Positions 10,631 through 18,942 of a DNA stretch of 37,783 nt are shown one piece after another. Origin of the DNA: Candidatus Bathycorpusculum sp. (lineage in GTDB: Archaea > Thermoproteota > Bathyarchaeia > Bathyarchaeales > Bathycorpusculaceae); NCBI GenBank assembly GCA_009778385.1, contig WRJX01000092.1, forward strand, positions 1 through 37,783, written 5' to 3'. The translations under genes were made by a program, and so were the position numbers. The notes beneath the pieces were generated by a model that saw only the letters and a program-made list of their open reading frames with translations, ran no database searches and was not told the DNA's origin. The stretch's first letter is position 1. Each line of letters starts with the position of its first letter.

Positions 10631-11080
10631 TTAGGCTTTATTGCCTGCGGTTTTTCTGGCTGGTTTGGCTCTAACAGGTTTAGTTGTTTGTTGGGTCCTT
10701 GGTTTAAGCTGAGTTTTTTCAGGGTTTTTTATGTTCCAGTCTGGGTAGTCTCCGTGCTCTTTTTTGTATATGTTGAGCAGTTCTTGTTGGGCGGCTTTTG
10801 GGTTCTCACTTGGTAGCCAGCTTATTGCTGTTCTTTCTAGAAAGCCTTCTTCTAAGAGTTTTGAATTGATTTTTTTGTTTGTTTTGTTGCCGTAGCCCGC
10901 TAAGTAGCCTCCGAGGATTTTTTTAGTAGGGTTTTTAGTTTTGCCAATGTACATGATGCCTGATGTTGTTTTGTCTGCTAAAACTATGACGCATTCTTTG
11001 CGTGGGATACTTTGAAATGAGATTTCTGTTAAAGGTGCAAATTCTGTAAAGTTTTTTTCTTTAAGAGTTAAAGAATTCAT
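10631..11080 (-). CDS. Divergent GIY-YIG-like small protein with basic tail
   Basis: This 149-residue protein has a compact domain matching the GIY-YIG fold: strand CVIVLADK (30-37), hairpin to GIMYIGKTKNPTKK (41-54), a central helix, and a C-terminal helix with a candidate metal-binding glutamate in AAQQELLNIYKKEHG (E100). The first GIY tyrosine is not recognisable (VIV/VLA instead) and the usual catalytic Arg after YIG-x-T is unclear, so activity is uncertain. Residues 119-149 are a disordered Lys/Arg/Pro/Gln tail, which suggests nucleic-acid binding. It stands alone, divergent from the polyphosphate operon. A TATA-like box about 26 bases before the ATG points to a leaderless mRNA. Confidence 0.6.
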   Translation of the reverse strand: MNSLTLKEKNFTEFAPLTEISFQSIPRKECVIVLADKTTSGIMYIGKTKNPTKKILGGYLAGYGNKTNKKINSKLLEEGFLERTAISWLPSENPKAAQQELLNIYKKEHGDYPDWNIKNPEKTQLKPRTQQTTKPVRAKPARKTAGNKA

Positions 11081-11386: not shown

Positions 11387-13510
11387 TTGTTAGACACAAC
11401 TGATGTAGAGTCATCCTTGAGTTTGGCGATTTCCAAAAACGTTAATCCAGATTTTTTTATAAATCGTGAGTTAAGCTGGATACGTTTTAACGTTCGTGTG
11501 CTTGAAGAGGCACGGGATTATAGACACCCGTTATTGGAACGGATAAAGTTTCTTGCAATTTGTGGCAGTAATTTAGACGAATTTTTTATGACGCGAATTC
11601 CAAGACTCTTAAAACAAGTCAATAATGGGTCAAATGAGTTGTCTGCCGATGGATTAACCGCTATTGAACAAATTCAAGTTTCACGAGAAGAAATACTTCC
11701 ACTTATCCAGCGCCATGCTGATTGCTGGCATGGCGAGTTAGTTCCAGCGTTAGCAAAAGCGGGTATTTACATCAAACGATTTGATGAATTATCTACTCAG
11801 GATAAAGCTGCTTTGCGAACGTTTTTTCAAAATAATATTTTACCAAACATCGCTACTCCTCTAAAAGGTTGTGACATTGACACTCTTGAGAATTTACACC
11901 TTTACCTCTTAGTTGTGGATGTTTTTAAAAAAGATGACTTTTACATTTTTGATGTTCCTACTGAAAAATTTGGTCGATTCATTGAAATTCCAGATAATTT
12001 TGTAAGTAAAACAGAGAAACCTGTGTGTCAATATGTTTTTCTAGAGGAATTGATTGCAGATAATTTGGATCTTATTTTCTCAAATCATCAATCTTTGGGT
12101 GTGTATCCTTTTCGTTTAACCCGTAACTTTGAGATTGATATTCTGATGGATGAAACTTCAGATTTTATTAATTCAGTAAAGAATAGTTTGTCCAAAAGGC
12201 AATTGGGTTTTCCAAGTCGGCTTGAATTTGACAAAAAAACTCCTCCAGCTGTACGAAATGAACTTGCTTTGTCATTAAAACTACCTAATTACTTGATTTA
12301 TGAAACTGACGGACCTCTAGGGTATGTTGATTTTTGGCAGTTGCTAAAAATAAACCGGCCTGATCTTAAAGATGCCTCATTTATACCATACGTTCCACCA
12401 TTGCTTTCAAATAGAAAACATATTTTCAAAAACATTGCTAAACAGGATATTGTTCTTTATCACCCTTATGATAGCTTTGAGGTAATAATTGACTTACTTA
12501 CGGAAGCAGCGGTTGATGTCAATGTTTTGGAAATTTATGTAACAATGTATCGTATGGATACAAAGTCACCTGTTGTTGACGCCTTAATAGAAGCTGCAAA
12601 GAATGGCAAAAAAGTGATAGCTGTAATTGAGTTGAAAGCCAAATTTGATGAAGAAAACAATATTTTATTAGCTTCAAAACTTAAAGCAGCAGGCGTAGAA
12701 ATCGTTTACAATTTTCCAAAAATCAAAGTACATGCTAAACTATGCCTAATAGTTAGGCGTGAAAATAACCGTCTTGCTCGATATTCTCATATTGGCTCAG
12801 GCAACTACAATGCGGTTACTGCTAAAATTTATGGCGACATAGGATATTTAACAGCTCGCCAAGACGTTGGTTTAGAGCTTGAGGATTTATTTAACATATT
12901 GGAGAATGGCTTGCAAGATAAAGAATTCAAATTCAAATACTTACTTGTAGCACCAACAACCTTAAAGCATGAAATTCTAAAAAGAATAGCTAGGGAAATA
13001 GCTTTTCACCAAAAAACAGGTAAGGGCTATCTTGCTTTTAAGCTAAATAATTTGGAAGAAACTGACGTTATCCAAGCACTTTACCAGGCCTCTATGGTAG
13101 GCGTTAAAATCGACTTGAACGTCCGCGGTTTATGCTGCTTAAAGCCCGGCTTGAAAGGTGTTAGTGAAAACATTTCAGTTATCTCTATTGTTGGCCGCTT
13201 TCTTGAGCATGCCAGAATCTTTTATTTCCAAGCCGGCGATGAAAGTGACGTCTTAATTGGCAGCTCTGACTTAATGTTTAGAAACCTCAATGAACGTATT
13301 GAGGTACTCTTTAGCGTGCCAGACCCAAAAGTACGACAGGTAATTCTTGAAGACATGCTTAAAATTCACCTTAAAGATAACGTTAAAGCTAGACGACTCC
13401 TTTCTGATGGAACATACCAAATGGTTACACCTAAAAAAGACGAAGAAGTCGTAAATTCCCAGCTCTGGCTTATACAAAACAGGGGTATCTGGCATGAGCA
13501 TAACATCTAA
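11387..13510 (+). CDS. ppk1: Polyphosphate kinase 1
   Basis: Ppk1 reversibly polymerises the gamma-phosphate of ATP into inorganic polyphosphate. The 707-residue protein has the full-length domain order: N domain (about 20-115, with FINRELSWIRFNVRVLEEA and the SNLDEFFMTR motif), head domain (about 116-320), and two phospholipase-D-like C domains. The autophosphorylated histidine is H449 in KIKVHAKLCLI, followed by SHIGSGNYN. The second conserved histidine is H608 in RFLEHARIFYF. ELKAKFDEENN (415-425) is the family's nucleotide-site motif. The start is TTG 11387 with GAGGA at 11372-11376 as ribosome-binding site. The 3' end overlaps the next gene by 17 bases, so the two are translationally coupled. 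Archaeal Ppk1 is patchy in distribution and may trace to bacterial transfer, which would need a tree. Confidence 0.97.
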   Translation: MLDTTDVESSLSLAISKNVNPDFFINRELSWIRFNVRVLEEARDYRHPLLERIKFLAICGSNLDEFFMTRIPRLLKQVNNGSNELSADGLTAIEQIQVSREEILPLIQRHADCWHGELVPALAKAGIYIKRFDELSTQDKAALRTFFQNNILPNIATPLKGCDIDTLENLHLYLLVVDVFKKDDFYIFDVPTEKFGRFIEIPDNFVSKTEKPVCQYVFLEELIADNLDLIFSNHQSLGVYPFRLTRNFEIDILMDETSDFINSVKNSLSKRQLGFPSRLEFDKKTPPAVRNELALSLKLPNYLIYETDGPLGYVDFWQLLKINRPDLKDASFIPYVPPLLSNRKHIFKNIAKQDIVLYHPYDSFEVIIDLLTEAAVDVNVLEIYVTMYRMDTKSPVVDALIEAAKNGKKVIAVIELKAKFDEENNILLASKLKAAGVEIVYNFPKIKVHAKLCLIVRRENNRLARYSHIGSGNYNAVTAKIYGDIGYLTARQDVGLELEDLFNILENGLQDKEFKFKYLLVAPTTLKHEILKRIAREIAFHQKTGKGYLAFKLNNLEETDVIQALYQASMVGVKIDLNVRGLCCLKPGLKGVSENISVISIVGRFLEHARIFYFQAGDESDVLIGSSDLMFRNLNERIEVLFSVPDPKVRQVILEDMLKIHLKDNVKARRLLSDGTYQMVTPKKDEEVVNSQLWLIQNRGIWHEHNI

Positions 13511-15848
13511 AAACCATACACTTAACTATGATGAAAGTTATTGCCAGTTTGGCTGTAATACGTTAAGCACACTTTTGAAGAATTTCGAAACTCAAATAGA
13601 TGGAGTTATAGAAAATAAAGACATTGAATATGTCCACAAAATGCGAGTTAACTCACGAAAAATAAGAACTGTCCTGCTTCTTTTTCAATCATGTTACCCA
13701 AAGAAGAAATACAAACGCTGGCTTAAAGAAATCAAAGCTATCACAAAACTGCTCCGCGAAGCACGTGATCTTGACGTTCAAATTACCTTTATACAAAAAT
13801 ATATCCAAGAATCACCAACCGAACGCCACTACTTGACGCCTCTGCTAAAAGACCACAGAGACCAACGAAACGTTCTCCAAAAAACCGTAACTGAAGGTTT
13901 AGAGAAACTACAACACACTGGTGTATTAAAGGAACTTTCTGACTTTCTAAAACAGATTAACTATGAATCATCAAGGGACTCTTTTGACTCTTTATCTGTT
14001 ATAGAAAAAGCCAGCCAAAACATAACTAGCAGGCTTAAAACTTTTTTAGCTCTATCTAAATACGTTCACCAAGAATCCGCATCACTTAAACATCATGAAA
14101 TGCGAATAGACGCTAAACATCTTCGCTACACAATGGAAACATTTGCCCCCCTATACAAAAACGAATTAACCCAAGAAATCCAGTTGATGAAAAACTTTCA
14201 GGACCTGCTTGGCGAAATACATGACTGCGACATATGGCTAATAACTATCTCACATTTCACTACTAACCAACCAGAAAATGATAACCAGCAAAAACCTCTC
14301 AAAAAAGACCTACAAACCGACGAATTCAAAAAAGCAGCCACAGCTTTTTTAGCGTACATAACTGAGCACAGAAAACGTAATTACAACAACTTTATTCAAC
14401 AATGGGATAAAGCTATGAAACAAAACTTTTTTGATAACCTAAAAAAAACTGTTAATACTGAGACAAACCTTGAAGAAAAACAATTTGATTCAAATTTACT
14501 TTTAAAAAACAACATAAAAATCGCCGTTTTAGCAGATATTCACGCTAACATACATGCATTAGAAATAGTAATTCAAGATGCCGAAAAAAGAGGTGCACAA
14601 TTATTTTTAAACGCCGGCGACTCAATTGGGTATGGTGCTTTCCCAAACGAGGTACTTCACTTAATTTATGAAAAAAATATGCTTAATGTTTGTGGAAATT
14701 TTGACGCTGAAACATTAAAAAATTCACACAAACACAATAGTAATAATAGTAATACCAAAAAAGTTGCCCTATCCTACACTAAAAAAGAATTAACAAAATC
14801 TTGTAAAATTTATCTCAATTCTTTTGCTGCCCAAATCGAATTGGAACTTGCCAACAAAAAAGTGTTTATGACCCATGCAAGCCCGTTATCCCCTACAGAA
14901 CACCTTACCCCTGATACTCCTGAACGACATTTAAAAAAGGTCGTTGCTCACACGGATGCTGACATAATAATCGTGGGGCATTCTCATGAACAATTTCATA
15001 AACAATTAGATGACGTTTCCATTATCAATCCTGGAAGCGTTGGACGCCCCGGTGATGGTAACCCCCAAGCTGCTTATGTAATGTTAAGCTTAAACCCCTT
15101 AAAGATAGACCTGATTAGATTAAAATATCCTGTTGAAGCAGCTGCTGAAGCTTTAAGAAAGAAAGGACTACCTGAAAGTTTTGCACAAATGCTGCTCAAC
15201 GGAATGCCCCTAAATACAATAGTTAGCAAAGATAAAACAAAAAAACAAGACCCCCACAGAAACTGGCCTGAAATAATCAAAACCGCTCAAGACTTAACCG
15301 AAACTTGCCTACAAGATAAAGCACACCTTAAACAAGTACAAATCATCGCTTTAGACTTGTTTGATAACCTGCAAAGCCTTCATCACTTAGACAACTATGA
15401 AAGGAACCTTTTAGAATGCGCCGCTTTACTACATGATTTAGGCTTATCACAAGGTATAAAAGGGCATAACAAAACCTCAATGACCCTGATTTTAAACGAG
15501 TCTTCACTACCTTTAACATCTGAGGAACGACGAATTATTGCAAGTATTGCTCGCTACCACAGAAAAGGCCTCCCAAAACAGAACCACTACAACTTAACAT
15601 CCCTAAACAGTAAAACAATTAACATAATCTGTGCTTTATCAGGGATTCTTCGAATCGCCGATGCTTTTGATTACCTCCATAACGCTGACTTTAAACTCTT
15701 AGCTATCAAAATCGTCCCCAAAAAAATTGTGTTTGAATGTTTTTCTACATCGAATACTTCTTTAATAGAGCAGGCATTTAATAAAAAGAAAAACTTATTT
15801 GAGATTTTCTTCAAAAAGAAGGCTATGCTAATATGGAACAAACAGTAG
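13494..15848 (+). CDS. CHAD - metallophosphoesterase - HD three-domain fusion
   Basis: Three domains lie in one 784-residue cytoplasmic protein. Residues 15-315 are a CHAD domain, a helical bundle with paired basic motifs VHKMRVNSRKIRT (47-59) and HHEMRIDAKHLRYTME (200-215) plus RDLDV (91-95); CHAD domains bind polyphosphate. Residues 340-550 are a calcineurin-like phosphoesterase of the YfcE/MJ0936 type with all metal ligands visible: DIH (D348, H350), GD (D376), GN (N402), H461 and GHSH (496-498). Residues 600-784 are an HD domain with H647-D648 in CAALLHDLG and ARYHRKGLPK (686-695), closely resembling the C-terminal HD domain of the neighbouring Ppx. It overlaps ppk1 by 17 bases and ppx by 16. 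The setting implies binding and processing of polyphosphate or a linked phosphate signal; the actual substrate is unknown. I know of no described protein with this architecture. Confidence 0.92.
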   Translation: MSITSKNHTLNYDESYCQFGCNTLSTLLKNFETQIDGVIENKDIEYVHKMRVNSRKIRTVLLLFQSCYPKKKYKRWLKEIKAITKLLREARDLDVQITFIQKYIQESPTERHYLTPLLKDHRDQRNVLQKTVTEGLEKLQHTGVLKELSDFLKQINYESSRDSFDSLSVIEKASQNITSRLKTFLALSKYVHQESASLKHHEMRIDAKHLRYTMETFAPLYKNELTQEIQLMKNFQDLLGEIHDCDIWLITISHFTTNQPENDNQQKPLKKDLQTDEFKKAATAFLAYITEHRKRNYNNFIQQWDKAMKQNFFDNLKKTVNTETNLEEKQFDSNLLLKNNIKIAVLADIHANIHALEIVIQDAEKRGAQLFLNAGDSIGYGAFPNEVLHLIYEKNMLNVCGNFDAETLKNSHKHNSNNSNTKKVALSYTKKELTKSCKIYLNSFAAQIELELANKKVFMTHASPLSPTEHLTPDTPERHLKKVVAHTDADIIIVGHSHEQFHKQLDDVSIINPGSVGRPGDGNPQAAYVMLSLNPLKIDLIRLKYPVEAAAEALRKKGLPESFAQMLLNGMPLNTIVSKDKTKKQDPHRNWPEIIKTAQDLTETCLQDKAHLKQVQIIALDLFDNLQSLHHLDNYERNLLECAALLHDLGLSQGIKGHNKTSMTLILNESSLPLTSEERRIIASIARYHRKGLPKQNHYNLTSLNSKTINIICALSGILRIADAFDYLHNADFKLLAIKIVPKKIVFECFSTSNTSLIEQAFNKKKNLFEIFFKKKAMLIWNKQ

Positions 15849-17401
15849 CACCTTTGGGACACGTAATAGGCTTTATTGATATTGGAACTAATGCGATTAG
15901 GCTACTTGTTGTAAGAATAAACCCTAACTTTTCATACACTATAATCAGCCAAGAAAAAGAAGTTATACGACTTGGCGAAAACGAATTCAATGATAACTTA
16001 CTTAAACCCGAAGCCATGAACCGCGCCATATTTGTCTGCGGAAAATTCACTAGTCTAGCTAAGACTTATGGTGCAACAAAAATGTTTGCAGTAGGCACCT
16101 CTGCTATTAGGGAAGCTGAAAACAAAACAGTGTTCTTACAGAGACTTTTTGATGAAACTGGCCTAACCGTTCAGGTAATCTCTGGGGAAGAAGAGGCTCG
16201 CTTAGTTTACAGGGGTGTTTTAAGCGGTATAGATATTGGCAAAGAAAAAGCACTATTTGTCGATTTAGGTGGTGGCAGTACAGATATTGCCATAGGTGAC
16301 CAGCATCAATTGTACTACACTTTTAGCATTAAAGTTGGTGCAATAAGACTTACAACACAATTTATCGGTGAAAACTGGACCAAACCCATTCCTGATAGTG
16401 TTTACAAGAAAATGAAGGATCATGTACACCAAAACTTGCACCCAGTAAACGCGATTGTTAAAGAATGTGGATCACATCTCGCATGGGGCTCTTCAGGCAC
16501 CATCATAAACCTTGCTGAAATAGCCGGGAAACTGTTTAAGAAAAACAGCAGTGGACTTGTACTTAGCAAGAAAAATCTTAAACGATTAGCTTCCAGATTG
16601 TGTTCTTTACCTCTTGAAGAACGACGAAAACTTCCAGGAATTAACCCATACCGAGCAGACATAATTGTTGCCGGAGCAGCCATTATGGATGCATTAATGG
16701 AAGATTTTGGTTTAGAGGAAATTTGTGTTAGCCACAAAGAGCTTCGTGACGGTATGCTTGTGGATTATCTCTCAAACTTTGAGGGCTATAGAGAACTACA
16801 AAAAACTCCCTTACATACCCGAAGCATCCTACATTTAGGCAGATCTTTTAACTTCGATGAGAAACACTCTAAAACAGTTTCAACTTTAGCCCTACAATTG
16901 TTTGATAGTGCAAAACAACTTGGATTACATTACTTATCAGACAAATACCGAGAACTATTAGCATACGCTGCTACACTGCATGACATTGGAGACATAATCT
17001 CTTTTAACAATCACCACTTACATTCCCATTATATAATTAGCAACGCAGAACTTTACGGCTTTGAACCTCAAGAAATCACCATAATCGCTAATGTAGCCCG
17101 CTTCCACCGCAAAAAAATACCCACTAACAAAACACTAAAAAAAATCAACCTAACCGAAGAAGCAAAATACGCAGTAATGGTTCTTTCAATGTTCCTTAGA
17201 CTAGCAGAGAAACTAGACCGTAGCCACACAGGGTTAATATATAAAGCAGAGTTCATCCGCAACGAAGAAGGCGTTGCTACACTTTCCTTTAACTCTAAAA
17301 CAGACTGCAGCCTAGAAAAATGGAGCATAATACAGAACAGACGCGCATTTTTCGAAACATTCCAAAAACAATTAGACGTAATCTGCATAGTAGACCCATA
17401 A
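15833..17401 (+). CDS. ppx: Exopolyphosphatase (Ppx/GppA) with C-terminal HD domain
   Basis: The enzyme removes terminal phosphate from polyphosphate, and GppA relatives also cleave pppGpp. The 522-residue protein opens with the actin-fold phosphate-1 motif FIDIGTNAIRLLV (14-26). Next come FAVGTSAIREA (85-95), the catalytic glutamates in SGEEEARL (117-124) and the phosphate-2 motif VDLGGGSTDIAIG (143-155). Residues 330-522 are the HD-type helical domain found in long Ppx proteins, with H383-D384 in ATLHDIGD and ARFHRKKIP (422-430). The ATG at 15833 lies inside the end of the preceding gene (16-base overlap). With Ppk1 upstream the operon contains both synthesis and breakdown of polyphosphate, so the balance must be set post-transcriptionally or by the fusion protein between them. 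Confidence 0.96.
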   Translation: MEQTVAPLGHVIGFIDIGTNAIRLLVVRINPNFSYTIISQEKEVIRLGENEFNDNLLKPEAMNRAIFVCGKFTSLAKTYGATKMFAVGTSAIREAENKTVFLQRLFDETGLTVQVISGEEEARLVYRGVLSGIDIGKEKALFVDLGGGSTDIAIGDQHQLYYTFSIKVGAIRLTTQFIGENWTKPIPDSVYKKMKDHVHQNLHPVNAIVKECGSHLAWGSSGTIINLAEIAGKLFKKNSSGLVLSKKNLKRLASRLCSLPLEERRKLPGINPYRADIIVAGAAIMDALMEDFGLEEICVSHKELRDGMLVDYLSNFEGYRELQKTPLHTRSILHLGRSFNFDEKHSKTVSTLALQLFDSAKQLGLHYLSDKYRELLAYAATLHDIGDIISFNNHHLHSHYIISNAELYGFEPQEITIIANVARFHRKKIPTNKTLKKINLTEEAKYAVMVLSMFLRLAEKLDRSHTGLIYKAEFIRNEEGVATLSFNSKTDCSLEKWSIIQNRRAFFETFQKQLDVICIVDP

Positions 17402-17532: not shown

Positions 17533-18942
17533 ATGCGGAGAAAGTTGTTTGCTGTAATTGTGGTGGTGTTGTTATTGGTTGGGTCGGTGGTAGTTACAAG
17601 CTATGTTGTGCTTAGTCAAGAGGTACAAAAGCCGTTCTTTGTGGGAGTTACGCATTGGGGTTATTCTGTTCAAGAGGCAAAAGACCGCATTGACCAAGTG
17701 AAAGATTACACAAACCTTTTCATTACGCAAGGTGGCGAGATTTTTTGGGGAAATATTGAGGCCATGGATGAAATTGGGGAGTATGCAATTGCTTCAAATT
17801 TAACTTATGCCGTTGCTGTTAGTGCAACTATTGCAGCTCCACGTTTGGTTGATTGGGCTGTTGAAGCAAAAGAACGCTGGGGTGAACAGTTCCTTGGAAT
17901 ATATTTCAATGATGAACCTGGAGGGCACATGCTTGACGGACAGGCTATTTTAGAAATGACATATCAACCAGCAATAAATTCTATGGGTATTTCCATCCAA
18001 AAAATGCCAGGCGGAATAATCATGACTCAGAGTGATAATGGGAGAACTTACTATAAGCCTAGTGGTGAAATCAACACTCAGCCTGCTTTTTCGCCGATTG
18101 ATGTAACTTATTATACCAATGGAACAATAACAGCAAACGTATTTAATTCCGATTATGAGCGATCTGATTTTTACACGTCAGAGAACATTACAAAATGTCC
18201 TTATCCAATACCGCTCTATGAGGAGGTTTTAGCGCAAAATCCTATACAAAATTATGATGATGCAGCTAATGCATATGTAAATATGAACAGAGAATTACTT
18301 GAAAGCACATGTAAAACGCTGTTAAGTGAGAATTCAGCTGTGGTTTTTACGGCTGATTATGGTCTTTACTGGTGGGATTACCAGAGCGGTTATGACTTGG
18401 TGCTTGCTGAGTTAGGTTGGAATAATTCCATCACTCAAGAACTCGGTTTAGTGCGAGGGGCTGCAAATCTTCAAAATAAACAATGGGGTACCATACTCAC
18501 TTGGAAATACGATCAAGCCCCATATCTCCCTGATGGGGAGGAAATGTTTGAGCAAATGAAAACCTCCTATGAAGCTGGAGCTGATTACGTGGTAATTTTT
18601 AACTACTCCGAAGATCCACGTAATCCCAACACTTTACAAGGAGAACACTTCCAAGCTTTAGAGCGTTTCTGGAATGATGTGGTTCAAAATCCCAAAATAA
18701 AGCACGGTGGTATTAAAGCTGAAGCTGTGCTAGTTTTACCGCAAAACTATGGTTGGGGCATGCGACACTCAAATGATAACATATGGGGTATATGGCAACC
18801 CGATAACACTTTACAACAAATATGGACCCAACTACAAAACAAAATAGACCAATATGGATTAAAGCTTGACATAGTTTTTGAAGACCCAAGCCACTCCACT
18901 ACATGGAAATATTCCAATATCTACTGCTGGAACCAAAAATAG
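17533..18942 (+). CDS. Secreted protein with glycosidase-like (TIM-barrel) features
   Basis: The 469-residue protein has an N-terminal signal or anchor helix (MRRKLFAVIVVVLLLVGSVV, then TSYVVLSQ) and a body that begins FVGVTHWGYSVQEAKDRID. The alternating strand and helix pattern, aromatic richness, and acidic-end strands such as FLGIYFNDEPGG (about 115-126) and AVVFTADYGLYWWDYQSG resemble glycoside-hydrolase-like TIM barrels. No family can be named with confidence and no catalytic pair is proven. It is preceded by its own 131-base spacer and starts at ATG 17533 with TAAGG at 17520-17524 as ribosome-binding site. It is probably not part of the polyphosphate operon and probably acts on extracellular glycans or the cell surface. 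A hairpin follows its stop. Confidence 0.6.
   Translation: MRRKLFAVIVVVLLLVGSVVVTSYVVLSQEVQKPFFVGVTHWGYSVQEAKDRIDQVKDYTNLFITQGGEIFWGNIEAMDEIGEYAIASNLTYAVAVSATIAAPRLVDWAVEAKERWGEQFLGIYFNDEPGGHMLDGQAILEMTYQPAINSMGISIQKMPGGIIMTQSDNGRTYYKPSGEINTQPAFSPIDVTYYTNGTITANVFNSDYERSDFYTSENITKCPYPIPLYEEVLAQNPIQNYDDAANAYVNMNRELLESTCKTLLSENSAVVFTADYGLYWWDYQSGYDLVLAELGWNNSITQELGLVRGAANLQNKQWGTILTWKYDQAPYLPDGEEMFEQMKTSYEAGADYVVIFNYSEDPRNPNTLQGEHFQALERFWNDVVQNPKIKHGGIKAEAVLVLPQNYGWGMRHSNDNIWGIWQPDNTLQQIWTQLQNKIDQYGLKLDIVFEDPSHSTTWKYSNIYCWNQK

Follow-up and report, generated by a model that had tools for sequence, protein, structure and literature searches.

A fusion of CHAD, calcineurin-type phosphoesterase and Ppx-type modules encoded between ppk1 and ppx is a candidate polyphosphate-cutting enzyme of uncultured archaea

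Introduction

In prokaryotes, the breakdown of polyphosphate is mostly credited to Ppx, Ppk and CYTH enzymes. Ppn1 and Ppn2, which belong to one superfamily, act in the vacuoles of eukaryotes and have neither CHAD nor Ppx modules. The processivity of Ppx reportedly originated with the fusion of its C-terminal HD part, as proposed by Alvarado et al. in 2006. A polyphosphate probe known as the PPBD peptide consists of the C-terminal part of Escherichia coli Ppx, beginning at residue 306 (PMC9079103). The polyphosphatase activity of E. coli YgiF is raised by its CHAD domain, and mutation of H29, R32, R36 and R69 abolishes polyphosphate binding by SsCHAD (both PMC6537752). Cleavage inside the polyphosphate chain is carried out by the metallophosphatase Ppn2 (PMC11352482), and a survey of 2019 obtained no endopolyphosphatase hits in archaea (PMC6864096).

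Here we analysed a stretch of 37,783 nucleotides from Candidatus Bathycorpusculum sp. (the window), in which a gene between ppk1 and ppx encodes a CHAD domain, a calcineurin-type phosphoesterase and a Ppx-type module in one protein. The original prediction noted that such an architecture is not known to have been described, and we likewise found no account of the combination in the open-access papers that were searched.

Results

The fusion gene overlaps ppk1 and ppx

The genes and domains of the locus were as follows.

11387..13510, + strand: ppk1, polyphosphate kinase 1, 707 aa (four Pfam PP_kinase domains; TIGR03705 and NF003921 above cut-off)
13494..13510, + strand: 17 nt shared by ppk1 and the fusion gene (open reading frame coordinates and sequence)
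13494..15848, + strand: fusion gene, 784 aa, with CHAD, metallophosphoesterase and Ppx-type C-terminal module (open reading frame and Pfam; orthologues in 22 Bathyarchaeia genomes)
13566..14240, + strand: CHAD domain, residues 25-249 (PF05235, E 2.6e-45; fold match to 6qva)
14517..15203, + strand: calcineurin-type phosphoesterase of the SapH/PF1291 type, as judged by homology, residues 342-570 (PF12850, E 3.2e-21; 3rqz, 3qfm and 1nnw; ligands)
15279..15845, + strand: predicted Ppx/GppA domain III with the stretch that follows it, residues 596-784 (PF21447, E 8.8e-17; fold match to 3rf0)
15833..15848, + strand: 16 nt shared by the fusion gene and ppx (this exact length in 14 of the 17 distinct genomes)
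15833..17401, + strand: ppx, 522 aa, an exopolyphosphatase that has a domain III itself (PF02541, E 3.4e-59; PF21447, E 7.2e-32)

The overlaps of 17 and 16 bases that had been predicted were recovered at the same lengths from the coordinates of the open reading frames. Pfam matches bore out the joining of CHAD, phosphoesterase and HD domains in a single frame, with the ligands at the residues originally named. In the three genomes without the 16-nt overlap, the junction with ppx had a 10-nt overlap (two genomes) or an 8-nt gap (one). The overlaps with both neighbours suggest that the fusion protein, Ppk1 and Ppx are probably made together by coupled translation. Scans for promoters and terminators yielded site numbers no higher than in shuffled sequence.

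Across relatives the usual order was CYTH, a reversed GIY-YIG gene, ppk1, the fusion gene, ppx, often a reversed ppk2, and then pst/phoU genes. A separate CYTH gene lay near the locus in many relatives; no CYTH match was obtained in the window's own genome, which carries ppk2 on another contig. In the window, the small GIY-YIG-like gene (10631-11080, − strand) scored under the Pfam cut-off, and almost every locus had it reversed and 5′ of ppk1. The gene at 17533-18942 (+ strand), 3′ of ppx, encodes 469 aa with a signal-like N terminus and gave no convincing Pfam match.

The CHAD domain retains residues for polyphosphate binding

The match to PF05235 scored 155.6 bits against a curated cut-off of 25.6 and covered positions 4-224 of the 228 in the model. 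When structures were predicted, the CHAD part matched the fold of 6qva, a CHAD-polyphosphate complex, and the match extended via helices to about residue 320. Conservation was then read from 19 distinct full-length fusion orthologues with pairwise identities of 38-77%, and the basic residues H48, R51, R55, R91 and R211 were found to be invariant in all of them. By motif, H48, R51, R55 and R91 look like the counterparts of the four SsCHAD residues required for binding, in the order given above. Homology and conservation thus strongly support binding of polyphosphate by the fusion protein.

The phosphoesterase is related to SapH

Residues 342-532 matched Metallophos_2 (PF12850), and an NCBIfam match to the YfcE-family phosphodiesterases was barely above its cut-off. 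Three solved phosphoesterases, 3rqz, 3qfm and 1nnw, matched the domain along its whole length by sequence, the latter two being aligned to residues 339-570 with the C-terminal extension included. The full-chain model was weak in this region (pLDDT below 50 over residues 322-446 and 515-574), so a shorter model of 450 residues was used (pLDDT 78, pTM 0.74; residues 398-442 at low confidence). Its top fold match was 3qfm (SapH, E 3.7e-9), with moderate TM-scores of about 0.6 by target for the fold matches of the domain. On sequence and predicted fold, the phosphoesterase is therefore classed here as SapH/PF1291 type. SapH, the nearest characterised phosphoesterase, is by its PDB titles an asymmetric Ap4A hydrolase and phosphodiesterase, which indicates that the subfamily cuts phosphoanhydrides. 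From this homology we infer that the fusion phosphoesterase would be metal dependent and would cleave phosphoanhydride bonds.

All seven metal ligands (D348, H350, D376, N402, H461, H496 and H498) were present in the window protein and intact in 17 of the 19 orthologues, the exceptions being L045, which carries D348N, and a second copy in genome G086 (L038_b). Stand-alone phosphoesterase relatives in other Bathyarchaeia had all seven ligands in common with the fusion and differed at several other positions that are invariant in it. One viral relative of the phosphoesterase was found, and it was distant.

The C-terminal module corresponds to domain III of Ppx

The C-terminal part had been predicted to be an HD domain with H647-D648. 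These residues were present; the identity of a generic HD hydrolase was replaced by that of Ppx domain III on the basis of Pfam and fold matches. Ppx-GppA_III (PF21447) matched residues 596-741 with 61.9 bits (cut-off 27.3), and the generic HD match at residues 611-727 was weaker (E 7.6e-8). The nearest solved chains by sequence were exopolyphosphatases, and the predicted structures matched those of Ppx, including 3rf0, a fragment of Yersinia Ppx, with about 200 aligned columns (TMt 0.71-0.74). The "HD domain" of the fusion is thus, as far as sequence and modelled fold can tell, Ppx/GppA domain III with the region behind it, and would be the counterpart of that part of E. coli Ppx which binds polyphosphate. 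It follows that each end of the protein bears a homologue of a polyphosphate-binding module. No match to PF02541, representing the ASKHA catalytic domains, was obtained with Pfam in the fusion protein, indicating that it is not a Ppx; a CYTH domain was likewise not matched.

We found a full set of HD ligands in the module (H611, H647, D648, H658, H689 and D723), of which five were invariant in the 19 orthologues, and 18 of these retained D648. Each of the 18 operonic Ppx proteins compared had E at the position of D723 and kept the other five. The complete motif of the fusion may possibly form a second active site. The earlier proposal of two phosphohydrolase-type domains has to be qualified: the HD part shares its ancestry with Ppx domain III, a domain that contributes to polyphosphate binding in Ppx, even though the metal motif is complete in the fusion.

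A recent copying of the module from domain III of the neighbouring ppx was considered and found to be unsupported: operonic Ppx and some free-standing HD proteins clustered away from the fusion HDs (97/96) in a tree whose deeper order is made unsure by long branches and by a row that was cut wrongly (SA_L103). HD proteins of the Ppx-III type also occurred free-standing (L103, L104 and L107) and fused to a dual-specificity phosphatase, in a 349-aa protein with PF00782 and PF21447 (L105, genome G567) and, judged by eye, at L106 (genome G492).

The fusion accompanies one type of ppk1

Among 257 Bathyarchaeia genomes, 22 carried the fusion. Of these, 15 belong to the window's genus and 4 to genus g17, a member of that family, and the remaining 3 belong to genus g84 of a different family. 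A ppk1 gene was detected in 23 genomes, and the two occurred together in 21 (Fisher p 1.6e-27, a statistic that ignores shared ancestry). The two genomes with ppk1 and without the fusion (G079 and G105) had distant ppk1 genes at 34-40% identity, and in the single genome with the fusion and without a detected ppk1 (G038) the gene was cut at a contig end. Each genome with this type of ppk1 therefore had the fusion. Every CHAD detected in the window's family and in that of g84 was part of a fusion. Distances between fusion proteins correlated with those between Ppk1 (r 0.89) and Ppx (r 0.87) proteins, consistent with co-inheritance.

Beyond this class, a sample of 398 Thermoproteota genomes yielded single domains only, as did plasmids, on which no match reached 80% coverage, and no viral relatives of the full-length protein were found. 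A scan of 84,980 species genomes returned Bathyarchaeota only, with patterns that were taken from one sequence and reach close relatives. Split frames in relatives had been named as a sign that the fusion might be an assembly or frameshift artefact. One such split was found, into 113 and 654 aa (L044 in genome G095), and several other genomes had the fusion cut at contig ends. The frame was, however, intact in most of the 22 genomes, among them G131, assembled as a single contig, and G100, assembled as three, and intact orthologues across three genera led us to reject an artefact, whose probability we regard as negligible.

Variant loci

In genus g84 the order, assembled from three genomes, was CYTH, ppk1, the fusion gene and ppk2, with ppk2 at the place where ppx would be. 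No Ppx/GppA match was obtained in any of the three, which are 74-82% complete. This gene content suggests that the fusion itself may degrade polyphosphate.

A second copy of the fusion was found beyond ppk2 in genomes G086 and G087, and in G088 (L005) ppk1 and ppx were adjacent and the sole fusion gene lay beyond ppk2. The second copy of G086 (L038:14864-17296) had lost H350, N402, H461, H496 and H498 and carried E in place of D648, with the CHAD residues kept. By its residues it looks like a natural, catalytically dead form, which suggests that binding is valuable by itself.

Some genomes, including G079, carried an unrelated pair of ppk1 and a short ppx of about 310 aa (L087, L088 and L091), which in G082 occurred besides the fusion operon and was perhaps acquired from elsewhere. 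In genus g70, CHAD and ppx were separate genes. These were adjoined by a gene for a protein of 400-428 aa with a VTC domain (PF09359, E 3e-7 to 4e-6; L077:1599-2873 and the same place in L078-L081), and the genomes had ppx and no detected ppk1. The protein is a possible VTC-type polyphosphate polymerase of archaea, a group for which the 2019 survey reported an absence of VTC hits (PMC6864096).

Discussion

Collectively, conserved gene order, the overlap of 16 nt between the fusion gene and ppx, a strict association with ppk1 and the conservation of binding and metal residues support the original proposal of a dedicated polyphosphate-processing protein made with Ppk1 and Ppx. We consider it somewhat probable that the fusion is a polyphosphate-tethered metallo-polyphosphatase, acting within the chain or trimming its end, and coupled to synthesis. 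The CHAD domain at one end and the Ppx-type module at the other would hold a polyphosphate chain or granule, and the two-metal phosphoesterase between them would cut phosphoanhydride bonds of the held chain, either internally, which would supply Ppx and Ppk2 with further chain ends, or terminally. This account follows the logic of YgiF, in which CHAD raises activity, and of Ppx, in which the C-terminal HD part is linked to processivity. We infer polyphosphate cleavage, endo or exo, and the position of the gene between ppk1 and ppx, near pst/phoU genes, speaks in its favour. On the other side, the ppk2 of g84 can also use polyphosphate and the genomes of that genus are incomplete, and Ppx is present in most genomes with the fusion, so that the need for another polyphosphatase is not obvious. 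Still bolder, and in our judgement tentative, is the proposal of a first archaeal, and first prokaryotic calcineurin-type, endopolyphosphatase, a chain-spanning enzyme in which a CHAD and Ppx-type clamp surrounds a two-metal cutter, possibly with a second, HD active site, and which would replace Ppx altogether in one genus.

The chief rival takes its substrate from SapH, since enzymes of this type are known for nucleotide substrates and SapH is both the top fold match of the phosphoesterase and a sequence match over its whole length. The fusion could accordingly hydrolyse ApnA (for example Ap4A) or another nucleotide alarmone while tethered to polyphosphate, coupling alarmone removal to polyphosphate state, or could trim nucleotide-capped polyphosphate. 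We consider this unlikely, though worth keeping in view: two polyphosphate-type domains and an operon with ppk1 and ppx point towards the polymer, and the subfamily is broad (YfcE, PF1291 and many uncharacterised members), so that ligands common to all of it give no substrate. Retention of the G086 paralogue with its phosphoesterase site destroyed and its CHAD kept also counts against a polyphosphatase and, with the D348N of L045 and the CHAD proteins that are said to coat granules, would fit a phosin-like scaffold that binds polyphosphate and brings Ppk1 and Ppx together on the granule, with catalysis secondary or absent. A pure scaffold would not have retained the seven ligands in 17 of 19 orthologues of such divergence, and we give this explanation little weight. 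Less probable again is an HD domain acting as the main or second enzyme, for instance on (p)ppGpp-like or cyclic nucleotides, with the phosphoesterase assisting. Its six-residue set is complete whereas that of the operonic Ppx is not, and free-standing and phosphatase-fused HD relatives occur in other Thermoproteota, but by sequence and fold the module belongs to domain III, a binding module in Ppx, and metal binding may be structural.

The polyphosphate-tethered hydrolase remains our preferred reading, and the protein of these uncultured archaea is a good candidate for an enzyme that cuts polyphosphate. Made with Ppk1, and wrapping an unrelated fold in two polyphosphate-binding modules, it renders the archaeal endopolyphosphatase gap directly testable. 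The occurrence of the Ppx C-terminal module with another catalytic fold furthermore bears on the evolution of polyphosphate processivity.

When compared with known systems, the fusion resembles the CYTH-CHAD polyphosphatases, such as YgiF, in joining CHAD to a metal-dependent phosphoanhydride hydrolase, and differs from them in a catalytic fold that is calcineurin-type instead of CYTH and in the added Ppx module. With Ppn1 and Ppn2 it has a similar proposed action, a likeness drawn from the shared superfamily. The closest relatives of its phosphoesterase by sequence and fold, SapH/Spr1479 (3qfm), PF1291 (1nnw) and the Sphaerobacter phosphoesterase (3rqz), occur as stand-alone proteins, some 250 aa long, that lack polyphosphate-binding domains. 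Finally, it shares with the Ppx/GppA exopolyphosphatases a homologous C-terminal module against which the catalytic domain is set, but in place of the ASKHA domains an unrelated phosphoesterase forms the catalytic part.
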